From positions 1 to 26,665 of the IMG/VR virus record IMGVR_UViG_3300048672_001522: a DNA stretch of 26,665 bases; one strand, 5' to 3'. The translations under genes and the position numbers were made by a program. Of the stretch, positions 23 through 19,570 are shown piece by piece. This stretch comes from a virus. The number at the start of each line of letters is the position of its first letter. Position 1 is the first letter of the stretch. The notes beneath the pieces are model-generated. The model made no database searches. It worked only from the letters and a program-made list of their open reading frames with translations, and was not told the DNA's origin.

Positions 23-1933
23 TTAGTCAGGGATCAAGGGATGTTTGGCTAAGACCTTGTTGGTCCGATCGTCCATTTCTTGTAGAGCACGGCGCAAATC
101 CCTGAGTGTTCGCTTGGCTTCCATCTCAAGCTCAATGCCCTCGTTCTTGGCAATTCTGATAGCTGCGGCTAAATCTTTTGATTCCAGGGCTTTATTTACC
201 GCTCTTATTCTAGCCCTTCGCTCATTGAGCATTGCAACATCTTCTTTTGTGATACCCATTGCAAGAATTTCCGCACTACCTCCGTTTGATTTTAAATCCC
301 TGTTTCGTTCGGTCGGTAGCGTAGTTGGGGGAACTACTGGGGGTCTATTTAGTCCCCCAGGCAATACTTTTAGCTTGGACTTAATTCGCTCTAAATTGCT
401 TTTTTGAGGTATAGATAGTTCCTTCTTGCACTTTTTCGTCGGGGATATACAACTAGCCCCGCAACTCAAACCTTTCTGGCATTGCTTGCGTTTTGGCGGC
501 AGAGAGGCACCAGGAAAAGCCAAAACCTTAGCGGCTGCAAACTCAGCCGCTATAGTATCCAGAGATTGGGAGTTAGGATATTGAGCATCCCCACCTGTTG
601 AATCTCCCAAATTACTAGTAATTGCTGCCACCGCAGTATCTGACCAATTTGGGAAGGCAGCATTTATTAGTCCTGTTACCAGTTCAGGACTCCAACCACC
701 AGATTTAGCATTAGAGACAATCGATACCAACACGTTAACTTGCTCGACGTTAAGTTGTGGCGTGGAATCCTTGTTCTCAGGAATGAGATACTCCTCTCCG
801 TACCGACTTGCAATCGCTTCAGGTTTGAGCGAAATCCCCAATCCTTGCAACTTGGTATCGGTATCCGCTAATACTCCTAAATCGGGGTCACTTTCGAGTT
901 TGCGCCATACTTTGGGATAGGCTGCGCCTGGAAAATTCCAATCAGTGAGCCATTTTACGACGCTATTATTAAAACTGTCGCAAATCAAATCAGCATCCGA
1001 TTCAATGACCGAATCAGCTACATCCTGATGCACCTCAGCTTGTGACCGACTACTACCATTATCGGTAGTCATGGTCTGAGATAGGATGATTTTGGCAATT
1101 GCCGCATCCATTTGGTCGCACAGCGATTTATAATCGACTGTCCCGTTGCGTGAGGATTCAAGGAATTCAATAGCCAGACCTTCTGGAATCATCATCCGGT
1201 CATCAAACCCAAAACTAGCTAGCGCATCCCAGAGAATATCTTTTTCCTGCTTGCTACTTCCTGCTGGATAAGTACCCTTACGGGCAGGCGAGGCAAATAA
1301 CTCCAGAAATCTCATCCACCACTTGACCCCGTTCCTTTTAAAGAATGTCGGCCAGTACAGCCAGTGAGCCAAACCTCTCCCATGCGGTTCGTCGTCGTGG
1401 TCAGCACCGACGCTAAAGTGCCAAAATTTCTTATCTGGTAATGCCTCACCTAGCGGATTACCATAAGTTTTGAGAGTAAGATTCTGGTCGATATCGAACT
1501 CAAAGCGACGGCGATCGCGCACTCTGATATCAGCAATACAGACATTATCCCCATCCCGTCCCCACAGTATTTCGGCTGCGCTAAATCCGTAGTGAACCCC
1601 ATACAACATTTTCTCGTTGCAGTCGTCCCACTTAATCGCCTTCAACTGCTGCTCTAAATGCGTGGCTGCCTGCTTATCAATCCGTTTTTCGCCACCTGGG
1701 AGCACTTCCCATTCATGAGATGTGACTGCTCTAAATCTTTGCTGAAGGCAAGATTTAACCTGGTCGTCCTGAAGAACGGCTTCGTATAATTTTAAATCCC
1801 CACCACCTTTAGTCAGCAGAATCTCATCAGTGGTGGGGAGATAGTTGCCAATCGCATTCACCCAGCCGCGTGTAATATCGCGACCATCCTTTATGCTGGC
1901 AAATTCGATTAGGCTAGGGCGATTGGCTACCAT
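23..1933 (-). CDS. Mu gp29-like portal protein (DUF935) with Cys-rich C-terminal extension
   Basis: Portal protein of 636 residues, expected to form the ring at the capsid vertex through which DNA is packaged. Residues about 1-430 have the DUF935/Mu gp29 character: an N-terminal stretch around DEILLTKGGGDLKLYEAVLQ, a Trp-rich centre (KKFWHFSV, HWLYWPTFFKRNGVKWWMRF) and an MTTDNGSSRSQAEVHQDV segment. After about residue 470 there is an extra tail with four cysteines (C485, C491, C495, C502) in a CxxxxxCGxxCIxxxxxxC pattern, then a Pro-rich linker and a charged helical end. The ATG at 1931-1933 lies 8 bases after the stop of the upstream DinD-like gene, so the two are probably co-transcribed. 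It is unusual that the portal is on the opposite strand from the capsid and terminase genes. The portal call is firm; the tail's role is unknown. Confidence 0.88.
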   Translation of the reverse strand: MVANRPSLIEFASIKDGRDITRGWVNAIGNYLPTTDEILLTKGGGDLKLYEAVLQDDQVKSCLQQRFRAVTSHEWEVLPGGEKRIDKQAATHLEQQLKAIKWDDCNEKMLYGVHYGFSAAEILWGRDGDNVCIADIRVRDRRRFEFDIDQNLTLKTYGNPLGEALPDKKFWHFSVGADHDDEPHGRGLAHWLYWPTFFKRNGVKWWMRFLELFASPARKGTYPAGSSKQEKDILWDALASFGFDDRMMIPEGLAIEFLESSRNGTVDYKSLCDQMDAAIAKIILSQTMTTDNGSSRSQAEVHQDVADSVIESDADLICDSFNNSVVKWLTDWNFPGAAYPKVWRKLESDPDLGVLADTDTKLQGLGISLKPEAIASRYGEEYLIPENKDSTPQLNVEQVNVLVSIVSNAKSGGWSPELVTGLINAAFPNWSDTAVAAITSNLGDSTGGDAQYPNSQSLDTIAAEFAAAKVLAFPGASLPPKRKQCQKGLSCGASCISPTKKCKKELSIPQKSNLERIKSKLKVLPGGLNRPPVVPPTTLPTERNRDLKSNGGSAEILAMGITKEDVAMLNERRARIRAVNKALESKDLAAAIRIAKNEGIELEMEAKRTLRDLRRALQEMDDRTNKVLAKHPLIPD

Positions 1934-1941
1934 TGTTTAAA

Positions 1942-2748
1942 TTATTCTCCGATTAGTTTCTGACGTTGACGACCATAGACGATACTGATCGCTTCATCTA
2001 ATCGATCGGGTGCTATATATTCGCTGGTTTGGGGACGGGTGACAGCAATCAATAGATCGTCGCGTCCAGCTTTGCGAATTTCATCCGTGAAGGCTTTGTG
2101 CGATTTCACCTTCTGACCTGTCCGACGCTGTACCTCTAGTTTTAACTGGTCAGCACTCAAGAATACATCAGTACTGCCAGTATTGAGGTTAATTACCTCA
2201 GTCACTTTGACCTGTTCACGCACGATCGCATCGGCACAACCAGATAAAGCAAGCACTACCTCGCGACCATGTATGGTGAGCATCGAATCTTGACGATCGA
2301 TCCGCTTGTTTCTTTCCCGCTCTAGCTGCAATTCTAGTTCTAACTCTCGTAGTCGATCGTTTTGAGCGGGGATGATTACCTCAGCCTCACGAGTTTTGGT
2401 AGCGAAATAATGCTTTGCTGCTTTTACGTTCGGTTTTCCACGACTATCACAAGCTAATGCGATATGGTAGCAAGCGATTCGAGATAGGCTGTAATCTTTT
2501 GCCTTCTGATGCTTCAGGGTTATTTCTAGAATTAAGGCATGAGATGAGATGTCTCCTACTGCCGATTCTAAGTTTTCTAACCCTAGCTGAATTGAGTTGT
2601 CAAACATCTGCCAAGCTTTGTAGCCAAGCATTTTTTGGAGATCTCGCGCAGACCACCACTCATTCCCTTTCTTGTCGTAGCGGCGAATTGAATCAAAAGG
2701 AGAACCGCTGTTCTCTTGCGATTTGCCCGAAACAGTAATACTATTCAT
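1942..2748 (-). CDS. DinD/BRO-like protein, copy A
   Basis: Protein of 268 residues when started at the ATG at 2746-2748. The frame stays open to 2892, but that extension would run through a structured leader, and the second copy at 15015 starts at the same MNSI position. The N-terminal half has the DinD/BRO-N pattern: FDSIRRYDKKGNEWWSARDL, an LGYKAWQMF segment and an LSRIACYHIALACDSRGKP segment. The C-terminal half differs from copy B: a Glu/Arg-rich coiled coil (RELELELQLERERNKR) and then an unrecognised domain. E. coli DinD inhibits RecA and phage BRO proteins often act as antirepressors; which applies here cannot be told. An SD-like AAGG lies about 11 bases upstream. It sits between the L,D-transpeptidase-like gene and the portal. 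Confidence 0.75.
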   Translation of the reverse strand: MNSITVSGKSQENSGSPFDSIRRYDKKGNEWWSARDLQKMLGYKAWQMFDNSIQLGLENLESAVGDISSHALILEITLKHQKAKDYSLSRIACYHIALACDSRGKPNVKAAKHYFATKTREAEVIIPAQNDRLRELELELQLERERNKRIDRQDSMLTIHGREVVLALSGCADAIVREQVKVTEVINLNTGSTDVFLSADQLKLEVQRRTGQKVKSHKAFTDEIRKAGRDDLLIAVTRPQTSEYIAPDRLDEAISIVYGRQRQKLIGE

Positions 2749-2779
2749 GTTGTGTTGACCTTCGTCAGAGGTTGATACC

Positions 2780-2822
2780 GCCCCTGGGGATTCGAGTGTG
2801 CCAACACTCTCCCGCGAGGGGC
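2780..2822 (-). ncRNA. Structured 5' leader RNA of DinD-like gene A
   Basis: Read on the minus strand, the leader folds as an outer helix GCCCCT/AGGGGC (2817-2822 with 2780-2785), an internal loop CGC/C, a helix GGGA/TCCC, a 3'-side bulge GAA and a terminal helix GAGTGT/ACACTC closed by TGGC. The same architecture precedes the second DinD-like gene. The outer helix there is GCCGAT/ATCGGC, a paired change that keeps pairing. Homology continues to the start codon. An ACCT (2769-2772) could pair with the AGGT of the SD (2758-2761). A -10-like TACAAT lies 7 bases upstream, so the RNA would begin at or near the motif. I do not recognise it as a named riboswitch. Confidence 0.6.
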
Positions 2823-2829
2823 TAATATT

Positions 2830-12245: not shown

Positions 12246-12278
12246 TTTGGCAGAAGCTCAAATTGAGCTTCTGCCAAA
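12246..12278. terminator. Perfect 16-bp inverted repeat, terminator-like
   Basis: TTTGGCAGAAGCTCAA (12246-12261) and TTGAGCTTCTGCCAAA (12263-12278) are exact reverse complements around one A. It lies in the gap between the tail-module end and the terminase small-subunit gene. The core 12254-12270 is identical to 2893-2909 in the other hairpin, while the outer arms are unrelated. No long T-tract follows, so it could also be a processing or protein-binding site. Confidence 0.55.
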
Positions 12279-14422: not shown

Positions 14423-14596
14423 ATGTCCCTACCTATTAGAATTGAGTCATTATTGGAACTATCCCAGCAGCAATGCGAACGGGCTATCCAAGCAATCGAC
14501 CGATTAATATCAGATGCAGCACTACCCCGACGACATAGCTACCAGCCCGTTACCCGAAATTCGAGCACTACTCATCACGAACGAGCAATTAATTAG
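14423..14596 (+). CDS. Small hypothetical protein overlapping the XhlA-like gene
   Basis: A 57-residue frame starting MSLPIRIESLLELSQQQCER and continuing AIQAIDRLISDA before a Pro/Arg/Thr-rich end. The first 32 residues look like a real amphipathic helical protein, while the final part overlaps the next gene in another frame. Without it there would be a 160-base hole after the terminase. No strong SD is seen. It may be real, but support is only compositional and positional. Confidence 0.4.
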   Translation: MSLPIRIESLLELSQQQCERAIQAIDRLISDAALPRRHSYQPVTRNSSTTHHERAIN

Positions 14597-14882
14597 AAGT
14601 CTTGCCGAAGCCCAAAAAGAGAACGCATCAGAAAGCAAAAAGCTAGCACAGTCGATTGGCAATCTCGAAGGTCAACTGATGGTGATTTGCAGTAGGTTAG
14701 ACCGAATCGATAAAGACTCAGAACTAAGCAGGGACGAAAGTGCTGCACAACGAGCGCGTTCTCATTCACAAACCTGGATAATTTGGGGTGCATTACTGAC
14801 TGCTATTCTGGCTGTGGTTGTGCCACTGATAATCCGCCCTGGCGCAATTTATCAGCCGTCTAGCGTTTCTACCCCTAAGTAA
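14514..14882 (+). CDS. XhlA-like coiled-coil and membrane protein, lysis candidate
   Basis: Protein of 122 residues: a helical, charged N-terminal 85 residues (EQLIRSLAEAQKENASESKK, then LEGQLMVICSRLDRIDKD) forming a likely coiled coil, and one C-terminal membrane segment WIIWGALLTAILAVVVPLII at about residues 88-107. The plan matches XhlA-type hemolysin-family proteins that assist holins, but it is longer than the usual 70-90 residues. It is the last gene before the promoter and leader of DinD-like gene B. The lysis role is inferred. Confidence 0.5.
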   Translation: MQHYPDDIATSPLPEIRALLITNEQLIRSLAEAQKENASESKKLAQSIGNLEGQLMVICSRLDRIDKDSELSRDESAAQRARSHSQTWIIWGALLTAILAVVVPLIIRPGAIYQPSSVSTPK

Positions 14883-14924: not shown

Positions 14925-14930
14925 TATAAT
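14925..14930 (+). promoter_or_regulatory. -10 box for leader B and DinD-like gene B
   Basis: A perfect TATAAT lies 10 bases upstream of the structured leader, so transcription would begin at or just before its first helix. The -35 is weak; TTGCTT at 14905-14910 has only a 14-base spacer. Confidence 0.45.
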
Positions 14931-14940
14931 CAAACATCAA

Positions 14941-14984
14941 GCCGATCGCGGGAGAGTGTTGAAGCACTCAGAATCCCCATCGGC
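14941..14984 (+). ncRNA. Structured 5' leader RNA of DinD-like gene B
   Basis: Folds as an outer helix GCCGAT/ATCGGC, internal loop CGC/C, helix GGGA/TCCC, bulge AGAA and terminal helix GAGTGT/GCACTC closed by TGAA. Compared with the minus-strand copy at 2780-2822, the outer helix changes at paired positions and the top helix has a U-A to U-G change. The bulge, the GGGA/TCCC helix and the CGCGGGAGAGTGTTG string are conserved. Downstream ACCT (14991-14994) could pair with AGG of the SD (15003-15005). It resembles a riboswitch or a phage regulatory RNA, but no known class was recognised. Confidence 0.6.
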
Positions 14985-15014
14985 GGTACCACCTACTCAC
15001 ATAGGACAGCACAA

Positions 15015-15821
15015 ATGAATAGTATCAAGGTTTTGAGCAATTCGCAACAGGACAACAGTACCCTTTTTGATTCGATTCGGCATCTAGACGAGAATGGGAA
15101 AGAGTTTTGGTATGCACGAGAATTAATGCCAATTCTTGGTTATAAACAGTGGAGACAATTTGAGGATGCAATCGATCGAGCGCAAGCAGCTTGCAAGAAT
15201 GCCGGAAACCCAGTCGTAGAGCATTTTTTGCGGAACGACGCAAAATCTACAACACGTAGTGGTAAGGACTATCGACTATCTCGCTACGCTTGTTATCTCA
15301 CAGCGATGAATGGTGATTCACGCAAAACAGAGATAGCAGCAGCTCAGTCTTATTTTGCCGCCCAAGCCCGCAAAGCGGAAACAGCAGAAGCAGAAGCACG
15401 AACTATCGTCGCTGACAGCTTCGACTCGCTCACCAGTGGGAAATTGATGGGGATTCGGAACGCTTTGATGAATCCTGGCAGCGTGTCTCCTGATGAATTT
15501 GCGGTTCTAACCGAAGGTATCAGCCAGACGTTAGTTGCAAAAATCGGCGCATTGACCAACGACCAATATGTCAAATTGTTCTTGAAACTTCGGACGGCTC
15601 GTGTACCTCAAGACATCCAAGACCAGATAGAGGCTGGCGAGTTCAACGATAAGGAGTTGAAAATTGCCGAAAAGACGATCGAGCGATTCGATAACCTGCA
15701 AAAGGTTGCGGATCGAAAGTGGCAACAGTCGATCGGTGACGGTGCAAATCAGAAGGTACTAAAAGACAATGTTATCCAAATGCCACTAATTGATGCTTCC
15801 GAGCAATCGCAGGCAGGATAG
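15015..15821 (+). CDS. DinD-like protein, copy B
   Basis: Protein of 268 residues, exactly the length of copy A. The N-terminal domain closely follows E. coli DinD: LFDSIRHLDENGKEFWYARE, LGYKQWRQFEDAIDRAQAAC, DYRLSRYACYLTAMNGDSRK and AAAQSYFAAQARKAE. DinD is an SOS-induced inhibitor of RecA filaments; phage relatives may regulate lysogeny or recombination. The C-terminal half is unlike copy A. AGGA lies 8 bases before the ATG. It is the sole gene behind its own promoter and structured leader, and its stop codon directly abuts that of the convergent integrase. Confidence 0.75.
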   Translation: MNSIKVLSNSQQDNSTLFDSIRHLDENGKEFWYARELMPILGYKQWRQFEDAIDRAQAACKNAGNPVVEHFLRNDAKSTTRSGKDYRLSRYACYLTAMNGDSRKTEIAAAQSYFAAQARKAETAEAEARTIVADSFDSLTSGKLMGIRNALMNPGSVSPDEFAVLTEGISQTLVAKIGALTNDQYVKLFLKLRTARVPQDIQDQIEAGEFNDKELKIAEKTIERFDNLQKVADRKWQQSIGDGANQKVLKDNVIQMPLIDASEQSQAG

Positions 15822-16934
15822 TTAGAAGTCTGGAGTGGTCAACCCCTCTTTTATGCCAGCATACTTTTTGTAGATAACATCTGCACTATTACCCACGAGA
15901 GCCGCGACATCCTTAGCATCAAGGGTGTCCAGCGCGTGGGTAATTGCTGTGTGGCGGACTTTATAGAAGCTGCGATATTTGAGATTGAGTTGCTTGAGGG
16001 CTGGTTTCCAGTGTCTATCGGTAAAGTTATGCAAATTAATATATGTGCCCCTGGGACTGGGAAATAACAAGTCCTGGGCTTCTCTATCTTCTGGAGCAAT
16101 CAACAGCAGGAAAGCGGTCAATGTCTTGCCACAAGCAATCGTGCGCTGTTCTTGAGTTTTTAGCCCGTCTTTAACCGAAATTAGACTACCGTACTCATTG
16201 GCAGTGAGCGATCGACTAAACACGATGCGATCGCATTCATCTGAGATATCACCCCATTGCAATGCCAGAGCCTCAGACGGACGACAGCCAGTGCGAAACA
16301 TGAACTCAACGAATGGTGCATAATGTGAATCGTAAAGCTTAAAATACTCGATAATGCGCGAACGTTCCGTTTCGGTGAAATATTCAATCCCAGACTTATC
16401 TTTGACGATTAATCCTTTAGCCAAACCGGCGAAAGGATTGCGGTCTAACAGCTTAGATTTTATTGCCCATTGACAGCAACCATTTAATTGGTTGATGATG
16501 CGACGGGTTGAATATGGAGTGCTTTGTTTGAGTAAATAATCTCTAATTTTGACCGCATCATCGACCGATGTATATGGAAATTTTTTGAGCCATCGTTCAA
16601 CTTGTCGATAGGTATGTGCGATAGTGTTTTGCGATACTTGTGGACGTTTATAATCCACATATTTATCCCATAAATCTATCAATTCTATTTGTTTGATTCT
16701 CTCTGTTTTAGGCTCGGACTGAAACTCCTTATACTTACTCTGAGTGGTGTCATAACTGCCACTGAGTATATCCATTTGGATTTTAGAGGCAATCGACTGA
16801 GCATAAGTGCGATTGGCTCTACTGTCCGGTAGTCCGAGCGAAAGGTAAATTCGCTCGCCCAGATATCTGTAAACCAGTTGCAGCCTGTCATTACTAACTC
16901 TAATCGCTACATTACCCTTTGGAGTTTTGGGCAT
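15822..16934 (-). CDS. int: Tyrosine site-specific integrase
   Basis: Phage integrase of 370 residues from the ATG at 16932-16934, which has GGGGG 6 bases upstream; a GTG at 16946 would add four residues. Counting from that GTG: an N-terminal arm-binding-like region, a core-binding helical domain (about 85-185), then the catalytic domain with Arg in TGCRPSEAL (R222), YKVRHTAITH (R331, H334 region, H337) and nucleophile Tyr in YKKYAGI (Y362). The usual first His of HxxR is Tyr, as in a number of integrases. It lies beside a tRNA 3' fragment, its likely attachment site. Confidence 0.92.
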   Translation of the reverse strand: MPKTPKGNVAIRVSNDRLQLVYRYLGERIYLSLGLPDSRANRTYAQSIASKIQMDILSGSYDTTQSKYKEFQSEPKTERIKQIELIDLWDKYVDYKRPQVSQNTIAHTYRQVERWLKKFPYTSVDDAVKIRDYLLKQSTPYSTRRIINQLNGCCQWAIKSKLLDRNPFAGLAKGLIVKDKSGIEYFTETERSRIIEYFKLYDSHYAPFVEFMFRTGCRPSEALALQWGDISDECDRIVFSRSLTANEYGSLISVKDGLKTQEQRTIACGKTLTAFLLLIAPEDREAQDLLFPSPRGTYINLHNFTDRHWKPALKQLNLKYRSFYKVRHTAITHALDTLDAKDVAALVGNSADVIYKKYAGIKEGLTTPDF

Positions 16935-16935
16935 T

Positions 16936-16968
16936 TTTACCCCCACCGTTTACCCCAACTTTACCACT
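16936..16968. repeat. TTTACC direct repeats, candidate integrase arm sites
   Basis: Three short direct repeats, TTTACCCCC at 16936, TTTACCCC at 16949 and TTTACCAC at 16960, are spaced 13 and 11 bases apart between the integrase start and the tRNA fragment. Spacing near one helical turn suits integrase arm-type or excisionase sites. The motif is short, so the call is weak. The first copy also supplies the integrase SD on the minus strand. Confidence 0.3.
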
Positions 16969-17684: not shown

Positions 17685-18314
17685 TTAATAAACCTTAACC
17701 CGTTTACATTCAGGAAACTTACTACAAATAAATTTAACAGTTTCAGGTTTGATTTCATTATTCTTGAGTAATCTGATGAGTGAAGCTGTTCTGATGGAGT
17801 AGTCAGAGTCTACGGGGTAATCGATATCTTGTTGACTAGATGGGACTTCTAAAGAGATGATTTCATCCTTCGGAGGTAAACCATTTTTATCAGTCCTCTT
17901 ACACTCTTTTTGCCAATCAGAACGATACCTATTCAATTGATTATCATCAGCACGAGATAATGCGAGTAATGCTGACCGCATTCCATTGCTAGACGTGATT
18001 TTGATTAGAGCAGTCAATGAGATACCAGAGATGGTGGCTTCCTTTGTAGATTGTCTTGCTACTCCAACAATTTTGTACCAGTCGGTATCAATCGGTTCGA
18101 CCTGCCCCAAAAACTCTAATATTTCTTGAGGTTTGGGAAAAATTCCTTGGTTGTAAAAGTGTTCGATTGCTCGACTGAAGTCAGCGCGAGCGAGGTGGGA
18201 TAGCTGGCGAAAGTACATTTCAATCATCAAATCAGTAATGTCAATCTTGCGGAAACTAATGCTTGCTAATAGATTCAGGCAGTCAATCAGATCGGATTTA
18301 GCTAGATATTCCAT
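17685..18314 (-). CDS. Putative helicase loader-like replication protein
   Basis: Protein of 209 residues directly downstream of the initiator gene, overlapping its stop by one base. The N-terminal segment (IEMYFRQLSHLARADFSRAI, then FPKPQEILEFLG) resembles the phage loader proteins of the G39P type: a helical bundle that feeds helicase onto the origin. The initiator-then-loader order matches lambda O-P and other theta-replicating phages. The middle (ISLTALIKITSSNGMRSALL) is helical; the end is basic (KFPECKRVKVY). No P-loop is seen, so it is not a DnaC-type ATPase. Confidence 0.5.
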   Translation of the reverse strand: MEYLAKSDLIDCLNLLASISFRKIDITDLMIEMYFRQLSHLARADFSRAIEHFYNQGIFPKPQEILEFLGQVEPIDTDWYKIVGVARQSTKEATISGISLTALIKITSSNGMRSALLALSRADDNQLNRYRSDWQKECKRTDKNGLPPKDEIISLEVPSSQQDIDYPVDSDYSIRTASLIRLLKNNEIKPETVKFICSKFPECKRVKVY

Positions 18315-19570
18315 TAATTAAAAACCTCTGGGTAATTGATTTGAATCCATTCAATCGGTGGACAATCTGGGTGTCCTGGTAACGTCACTAACTTCTTCAG
18401 CAAATCGATATATCTACCGATGTTCGCTCCAGTTCGGAGGCGATCGCTCCTCCACTCCGGTCTGCCATTCGATTGCTCGACAATCTTCTGCGCCAACTTT
18501 TCTTTGACACTTTCTCCACTCCCTTCCCATTTCGCCGCTGCCACTTCTACCCGTTCGCTCTCACACAGCCAGTAAATATCCCCGCTCCCAAATTCTTTTT
18601 TCGTGTGAAAGTCGCTTCCCCTATACCACAGCAGCGCGTTCTTCCAATCCTCTGTTAGCTTCTCGATTGATTCCCCGTTGGATTGGTATCGATCCACTAA
18701 ATACTTAATCTTCTTTCTAAGGGTGCTATTTGCCTTCTTAACCCCTGTCCAGTTATCTGGACGACCATTGTTATACAACCTCACCAACTCGTCTGTTATA
18801 GGGGTAATATTGCCTGAGTAATTCCAGCTATCATTAAATTTCTGTGTGGTCTGGTGTCTTGTTTTGTCGCACCCGCCGGAAAATTCCCCTTCTCCAGAAA
18901 CCGGACTTACTTCTAGGGATTGAGTTATTGGTTCCGTGCTTGCTAGAGGTTCACGAATGGTTTCCTCAATTTCCGTGCTTGCAAGAACCTCAGTGCTTGC
19001 TAGAGATTCTTGAATGGTTGGTTCGGGTTCAAATTTTTCACCAAAACTTTCCCCCGCGCGCGCGTCCGGATCTGTGTGTGTATTCTTTGTGAGTATTTTT
19101 TGATTAGTATTCTCTGTATATATAGATCTAGCGTCAGATATTACGCTTGCTAACGTCACATCTGACGCTTGCTGACGTAAGATGTGACTCTTGCTAACGT
19201 CACATCTTACGTTAGGGATATTGCTGGATTTGAGGGCTGTATCCGCAATTGTTTGGTACAAAAGTTCTATGTCGAGTTTGTACCAAAGTTGTCGATCGAG
19301 ACCCCTTTGTTCTTCAGTTAGTAGTCCCAATTTCTTGAGAGATTTTCTAGCTACTTCCCATTCGCGCCGAGAGATAAAAGTCTCCTGATGCCAATCGTCA
19401 AAGGTTTTATAGATGAAGCCGTTCGGGTCACGACCTTTGTTGCCATTGCTCCAATAATAAAGTTGGGACAGAAATATACCACCAGAGACACTGCCAACAA
19501 TCTCGGCAAAAATTGATTGATAAGCGATCGGACGACTTAGTAATTTCTGAACAATTTGTAAGTTATTCAA
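18314..19570 (-). CDS. Replication initiator with embedded origin
   Basis: Protein of 418 residues with a TTG start supported by GGAG 7 bases upstream. The N-terminal 110 residues form a winged-helix replisome-organiser domain (FLSQLYYWSNGNKG, FIYKTFDDWHQETFISRREW, ARKSLKKLGLLTEEQRG). A low-complexity linker follows (about 120-240), with repeated LASTE units, and then a C-terminal helical domain with several Trp residues that may contact the loader encoded next. The iterons at 19124-19211 lie inside the gene, encoding residues about 120-149. This is the lambda O arrangement: N-terminal domain binds iterons in its own gene. The linker's odd composition reflects DNA-level constraint. Confidence 0.68.
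   Translation of the reverse strand: MNNLQIVQKLLSRPIAYQSIFAEIVGSVSGGIFLSQLYYWSNGNKGRDPNGFIYKTFDDWHQETFISRREWEVARKSLKKLGLLTEEQRGLDRQLWYKLDIELLYQTIADTALKSSNIPNVRCDVSKSHILRQQASDVTLASVISDARSIYTENTNQKILTKNTHTDPDARAGESFGEKFEPEPTIQESLASTEVLASTEIEETIREPLASTEPITQSLEVSPVSGEGEFSGGCDKTRHQTTQKFNDSWNYSGNITPITDELVRLYNNGRPDNWTGVKKANSTLRKKIKYLVDRYQSNGESIEKLTEDWKNALLWYRGSDFHTKKEFGSGDIYWLCESERVEVAAAKWEGSGESVKEKLAQKIVEQSNGRPEWRSDRLRTGANIGRYIDLLKKLVTLPGHPDCPPIEWIQINYPEVFN
18936..19019. repeat. 27-bp direct repeat in the initiator linker
   Basis: GTGCTTGCTAGAG begins both 18936-18962 and 18993-19019, and both end with GAATGGTT. A third shorter GTGCTTGC is at 18975. They encode the LASTE units. The GCTTGCTA core is shared with the iterons, so they could be remote, degenerate origin sites. 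Confidence 0.5.
19085..19211. other. Putative replication origin: iterons and AT-rich DUE
   Basis: Three 22-bp tandem iterons run 19146-19167, 19168-19189 and 19190-19211, each starting CTTGCT. A degenerate fourth is at 19124-19145. The core GTCACATCTTACG is direct in copies 1, 3 and (degenerate) 0, and inverted in copy 2, so copies 2 and 3 make a 14-bp inverted repeat (19175-19188 with 19199-19212). The period is two helical turns. An AT-rich tract at about 19085-19127 abuts them, as a DNA-unwinding element would. The whole lies inside the initiator gene, as in lambda ori. Confidence 0.72.

Follow-up and report, generated by a model that had tools for sequence, protein, structure and literature searches.

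Ahead of one gene in a viral DNA of 26,665 bases (the window, the entire stretch that was analysed) stand what look like a promoter, a folded RNA leader and a small hairpin at the ribosome site: is this a genuine control device, and if it is, what does it control and what might, in turn, control it? The window is a virus record with genes for portal, head protease, major head protein, large terminase and integrase, and the closest relatives of its Bro-N proteins are found in cyanobacteria. The original prediction likened the arrangement to a translational riboswitch in front of a single DinD-like gene. We argue that the leader is a member of an apparently undescribed family of 5'-terminal structured mRNA leaders of cyanobacterial phages and related elements and that it is probably (we would put it at about 60%) a portable promoter–leader cassette, with a 5' hairpin and an SD hairpin, restraining translation of one accessory gene.

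The locus that raised the question, which we refer to as “copy B,” reads much as first described (Table 1). TATAAT does end ten bases ahead of the outer helix of the structured motif, and the promoter lies directly ahead of the leader both in the sequence of copy B itself and in the placement of the -10 box across the family; a -35 box was looked for in copy B, and none was found. Hairpin 1 is the predicted minimum-energy fold (RNAfold). Its 53-nt piece has z = -4.2, with none of 200 dinucleotide shuffles equally stable, and the entire 77-nt leader has z = -3.2. A reading of the hairpin as an intrinsic terminator was ruled out, there being no T-run after it. The 3' arm of hairpin 2 overlaps the SD (AGGA, 15003-15006), with the AUG at 15015 lying 8 nt downstream, and the proposal that an ACCT/AGG pair could hide the SD stands insofar as hairpin 2 covers AGGA, but the masking is weak in copy B taken alone, where mean SD pairing is 0.62. 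That the DinD-like gene would be the only gene controlled has held up: it is the only same-orientation gene downstream, and copy B can serve only this Bro-N gene because the next gene is the convergent integrase (15822-16946). The encoded protein matches phrog_8036 (2e-38) and, among anti-repressors, phrog_130, Ant (4e-5). An upstream ORF at 14514-14882 was considered and is not part of the cassette.

Table 1. Positions of the leaders, their parts and the genes behind them in the window, and of the leaders in phage PaV-LD
Feature	Position	Strand	Basis or remark
Copy B (promoter + leader)	14925-15014	+	ahead of monocistronic Bro-N gene
Copy B -10 box TATAAT	14925-14930	+	sequence
Copy B hairpin 1	14941-14984	+	RNAfold; compensatory changes at all 11 P1/P2 pairs
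Copy B P1	14941-14946 with 14979-14984	+	RNAfold
Copy B G-C pair	G14948-C14978, flanked by bulged C14947 and C14949	+	RNAfold
Copy B P2	14950-14953 with 14974-14977	+	RNAfold
Copy B P3 (apical), plus AGAA bulge in hairpin 1	14954-14959 with 14964-14969	+	RNAfold
Copy B hairpin 2	14992-15006	+	CCUA 14992-14995 / UAGG 15002-15005; RNAfold
Bro-N gene (DinD-like, antirepressor-type), 268 aa	15015-15821	+	PF02498 E=1.6e-11
Copy A (promoter + leader)	2838-2749	-	second cassette, ahead of another Bro-N gene
Copy A extended -10 promoter TGTTACAAT	2830-2838, reading 2838 to 2830	-	sequence
Copy A hairpin 1	2780-2822	-	RNAfold; matched by models R1/R2
Copy A hairpin 2, ACCU/AGGU over SD	2758-2772	-	sequence + family alignment
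Copy A Bro-N gene, 268 aa	1942-2748	-	PF02498 E=1.6e-5; phrog_8036 1e-18; phrog_130 3e-8
PaV-LD leaders	67729-67805, 45799-45866, 16668-16738, 72108-72174, 75127-75197	-, +, -, +, -	R2

Copy B is not alone. The window holds a second leader, copy A, 79% identical to the first (2738-2823, minus strand, E = 3e-15), in which two P1 pairs are altered on both sides. When copy A is folded alone (RNAfold), a competing GGU/ACC fold is preferred over hairpin 2, and SD pairing falls to 0.34. The start of the copy A Bro-N gene, 2748, was set by the leader; the domain scan used a longer, TTG-start frame (1942-2892). In copy A, the apical stem could also pair with the SD spacer over 8 bp, but a third copy, L029, by inspection lacks this complementarity, and hence such pairing is not claimed.

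That third copy came from a pattern scan of IMG/VR and belongs to a related phage, in which it occupies the same slot as copy B (terminase, small ORF, leader and Bro-N, integrase). With R1, a covariance model built from these three leaders, matching stretches turned up immediately ahead of Bro-N genes of other phages and also ahead of a KilA-N/ParB gene belonging to a cyanobacterial genome, and when whole virus records were searched, second leader copies appeared ahead of other genes. We also scanned with a pattern for the tail only (GTCAACCT..AGGTCAAC..ATG), from which the 5' hairpin was absent; it picked out 33 contigs, about fourteen of which have a matching 5' hairpin too. A second model, R2, built from 21 members, brought the family to at least 40 distinct members after six doubtful matches had been dropped, mostly from cyanophages and cyanobacterial elements on the inferred hosts of the metagenomic contigs. 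Good examples are found on the GC-rich contigs L199, L215 and L201. Weak matches set aside as due to chance or doubtful are L062, inside a clpC-like frame; L216/L217, a terminator-like hairpin before an unrelated gene; and L218, L228, L229, L259, L036, L123, L146 and PaV-LD 92253-92332.

A virus record may carry up to four or five leaders, and PaV-LD, an isolated Planktothrix phage (NC_016564.1), has five confident copies, four of which end exactly at annotated start codons. In PaV-LD, the annotated start of ORF105L (74659-75186) falls within a leader, which indicates an AUG about 17 codons downstream, giving a KilA-N protein. In another phage (L253, record G410), two leaders (541-607 and 1062-1127, plus strand) sit about 520 bases apart, each before its own antirepressor-like gene and with almost identical promoters, which suggests a tandem duplication of the whole cassette. 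The search gave no convincing copy in the isolated cyanophages CL131, 2AV2, PA-SR01, LMM01 and A-1 and one match in a Nodularia phage at E = 0.015, where E-values from home-made models such as ours are rough. Cyanobacterial genomes rarely carry the leader: at E <= 0.1, matches came from 5 of 386, and three of these were strong. Comparison of the leader by blastn with phage and plasmid collections gave no match, the leaders being too diverged. Rfam 15 at its gathering cut-off matched neither the whole window nor 21 loci holding relatives, copy B had no Rfam match even at E <= 5, and no description of the family was found in the literature searched, whose scope left most subscription journals outside. 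Nor is the leader a general feature of Bro-N genes, a notion ruled out when the model was run over 89 further loci, most of them Bro-N, and gave only three weak matches (E >= 0.03). Other cyanophage Bro-N genes (L077 and L079-L084, at about 2415-2500; L065 and L078, at about 2425-2500) have leaders of similar layout, with an A/T-rich -10-like box, a long 5' hairpin and a small hairpin over GGAGG; they are unrelated in sequence, are unmatched by the model and are possibly convergent leader families.

Is the structure itself what has been kept? In the alignment of 21 members, all 11 pairs of hairpin 1 (P1, the G-C pair and P2) have double changes, 95% of cells are paired, and the covariation score is 0.308, against 0.106 when shuffled and at most 0.053 with the partners slid; in 46 distinct rows, 17 of 17 modelled pairs have double changes, and the score is 0.503 against 0.156, these covariation alignments having been fitted to the model. 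Folded singly and without alignment, 43 of 44 sequences form the 5' hairpin (mean z = -2.1). P2 alone is met as GGGA/UCCC, GGUA/UACC, GGUG/CACC, GUUG/CAAC, GACA/UGUC and AGUG/CACU. The structured 5' leader that had been proposed is, then, conserved by compensatory change, and as a matter of sequence comparison, covariation across 21 and 46 distinct relatives is enough to exclude a chance origin. Hairpin 1 contains few G-U pairs (16 of 514 when sequences are folded singly; 3 cells in alignment A7). We had also entertained a likeness between GAATCCCC and the ends of TnpB/IscB guide RNAs, and dropped it: the relatives precede unrelated genes, and there are compensatory changes in that very segment.

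Not only pairs are conserved. Hairpin 1 runs from P1 through a bulged C to P2 and a loop ending in AA, where the AA is conserved on the 3' side of the loop, before the 3' strand of P2; the bulged C (C11) is kept in 35 of 37 and an optional second C (C9) in 26 of 27. In the window's copies, an insertion in the apical loop forms the long P3; in most members, this loop is 6-7 nt. Hairpin 2 takes the form GU-CA-ACCU...AGGU-CA-AC in most members, with a conserved CA/CA internal loop (A84 in 35 of 38, A117 in 36 of 38); because some members were gathered by way of the tail pattern, there is a bias in hairpin 2, one that does not extend to hairpin 1.

The place of the leader within its transcript is equally regular. 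Of 41 leaders, 31 have a -10 box (at least 5 of 6) located 4-15 nt ahead of P1, where shuffles give 7.9 (maximum 15), and the promoter is mostly 5-14 nt ahead; in 23 of the 41, the box is TGn-extended, for which chance gives 0.4 and at most 3 in 1000 shuffles. The usual distance from a -10 box to the start site is 6-8 nt, and with this spacing, the 5' end of most of the RNAs would coincide with the start of the hairpin or fall slightly ahead of it. At the other end of the leader, the SD has a pairing probability of 0.75, compared with 0.54 in controls in which the segment between hairpin 1 and the SD was shuffled (Wilcoxon p = 8e-6), and CCU occurs in 36 of 43 leaders, compared with 20% expected. 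Masking is uneven, all the same, dropping to 0.0 in L061; several members have a weak SD hairpin, and in copy A, L061, L255 and two PaV-LD copies, another fold is favoured over it.

What, then, is put under the leader's control? Most of the downstream genes are of antirepressor type. The regulators include Bro-N proteins, KilA-N proteins (once fused to ParB), a weak Rha match, HTH/P63C-related proteins and relatives of “putative phage antirepressor” proteins of Nodularia and Anabaena/Nostoc phages; the others comprise phrog_32599, HNH, DUF723/T5orf172-like, PAPS reductase and DUF932 proteins as well as one that resembles a PD-(D/E)XK nuclease when inspected by eye. Regulators and endonucleases of the types that make up most of this list are known for domain shuffling in DNA viruses. 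Four related phages provide a telling comparison in the slot between protease and portal (slot A), where the leader is followed by three different genes: one Bro-N common to window A and L050, another Bro-N in L188, and in L181 a protein without Bro-N. Between L181 and L188, the DNA is 98% identical upstream and 100% identical in the leader, whereas the coding DNA is at the random level. Between window A and L050, it is the coding DNA that is alike (80%), whereas the leaders, which both fit the model, are 62% identical. The gene is therefore exchangeable, and the structure is kept while the sequence of the leader drifts. The Bro-N gene of L029 (4254-5008, minus strand) looks mosaic, its N-terminal half nearest to the window A protein and its C-terminal half nearest to B, so that the A and B genes appear to have exchanged domains.

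Alongside the directly observed conservation of structure, promoter position, SD-pairing bias, multi-copy distribution and gene swap, we set the following model. Each leader would have a -10 promoter of its own, extended in most cases, from which transcription starts with hairpin 1 at the head of the message; hairpin 2 would then fold over the SD. A compact cassette of 55-80 nt could in this way cap and protect the 5' end of the message, which hairpin 1 probably stabilises, and hold the translation of a single accessory gene downstream at a low level, or prevent it until some factor opens the leader; SD masking would be expected to lower translation. Because unpaired bases are conserved, a recognised surface is suggested, and because many unrelated genes carry the leader, so is a common trans-acting factor, which would recognise those bases. 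Recombination in the leader and the first codons would exchange the gene behind the cassette. One may go further, and more tentatively, since we hold this extension to be rather less than an even bet, to imagine a dispersed post-transcriptional regulon of temperate cyanophages, in which one phage or host factor, recognising the hairpin with the bulged C, the SD hairpin with its CA/CA loop, or both, jointly switches on all leader-bearing antirepressor-type and nuclease genes, and which genes would enter by recombining in behind a leader.

Might the leader need no partner at all? Hairpin 1 could simply stabilise the 5' end of the mRNA while hairpin 2 sets a constant low translation of potentially harmful regulators and nucleases, an account that sits well with an mRNA expected to start at the hairpin base and with SD masking that is biased yet modest. 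A plain stabiliser or dampener, however, needs no conserved unpaired bases (the bulged C, the loop AA, the CA/CA loop), and we regard such a purely cis-acting role as rather unlikely. If there is a partner, it could be a trans-acting phage RNA, like P1 c4 or P22 sar, complementary to GUCAACCU/AGGUCAAC. Phage small RNAs are known to act on antirepressor genes (PMC12197685), and the leader often has a repeated GGUCAAC around the SD; against this, the leader does not match the Rfam C4 family, and the hairpin loops are too variable for one common antisense RNA, although the tail is not, which leaves the idea unlikely in our estimation. Of the riboswitch first envisaged, the translational layout survives, with its promoter, folded 5' domain, SD-masking hairpin, single gene and compensatory changes, but not the metabolite. 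A hairpin 1 aptamer that binds a small molecule and so alters the SD hairpin would account for the two domains and for the unpaired bases conserved in both hairpins, yet the conserved core is very small, the genes behind the leader are unrelated accessory genes that form no metabolic pathway and point to no ligand, no Rfam riboswitch matches, and a search for a conserved, mutually exclusive pairing joining hairpins 1 and 2 found none, the two folding separately in most members (pseudoknot-free folding). A ligand-binding switch is, to our minds, quite improbable.

The exchange of genes counts against autoregulation, in which each leader would be the target of the Bro-N or KilA-N protein encoded behind it. 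Most of the downstream genes do encode antirepressor-type DNA-binding proteins, but the same leader stands before HNH and PAPS reductase genes and a gene without a detectable Bro-N or KilA-N domain, and in slot A, unrelated proteins follow identical leaders; we think this very unlikely. The swap taking place exactly at the leader might instead speak for a role in DNA, the hairpin acting single-stranded or as a cruciform (for example, as a recombination joint for gene swap) with RNA being secondary, and the scarcity of G-U pairs would fit a single-stranded-DNA hairpin too. A fixed place between the -10 box and the SD/AUG and a bias in SD pairing are features of a transcript, however, and we consider a DNA-level role very unlikely. 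A restraining promoter–leader cassette stays our preferred reading.

How does such a cassette compare with what is already known? The T4-type homing endonucleases I-TevI, segB and mobE have RBS-sequestering hairpins (PMC2988022), and the likeness is one of accessory DNA-cutting phage genes whose SD, about 8 nt from the AUG, is masked by RNA structure. For I-TevI, only transcription from early and middle promoters further upstream yields the masking structure (PMC2988022), whereas the leader has its own promoter just upstream of the structure, so its own transcript (from predicted start sites) would retain both hairpins; unlike the T4-type hairpins, moreover, the leader family adds a 5' hairpin with conservation of sequence that is common to many gene families. 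The c4 (P1/P7, Rfam RF01695) and sar (P22) RNAs also exert post-transcriptional control over phage antirepressor genes near the ribosome site, as we propose for the leader, but they are separate RNAs acting in trans on ant mRNA (PMC12197685), whereas the leader, which has no Rfam C4 match, is the mRNA's own 5' end, in cis. The manA and wcaG motifs of Rfam are likewise conserved structured RNAs tied to cyanophage genes, with metabolism, exopolysaccharide and light-induced genes downstream (PMC2864571), in contrast to the regulators and nucleases behind the leader, which matches neither. The STAXI motif, too, is structured and occurs in repeated copies near genes whose products manipulate DNA, and a single-stranded DNA role has been considered for the motif (PMC2864571); the leader differs in occurring once per gene, at a fixed place relative to promoter, SD and AUG, and in having no Rfam match.

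The decision between lysogeny and lysis in temperate cyanophages is poorly known, and control at the RNA level there is little known. An RNA leader family tied to antirepressor-type genes and present five times in an isolated phage makes the idea of a shared switch directly testable, and the exchange of phage genes behind an unchanged promoter and leader offers a way in which accessory “moron” genes could acquire ready-made regulation.

The window has other repeated sequences as well. Near-identical 23-bp palindromes (CAAAAGCTCAAATTGAGCTTTTG) at 2890-2912 and 12251-12273, one of which precedes the copy A promoter by about 55 bp, are possible operator or terminator sites. Two clusters of imperfect repeats, at 19132-19211 with a spacing of 22 bases and at 18933-19019 with spacings of 18 and 39 bases, both lie inside a long minus-strand ORF (18314-19570) and may be iteron-like or may encode a repeat protein.
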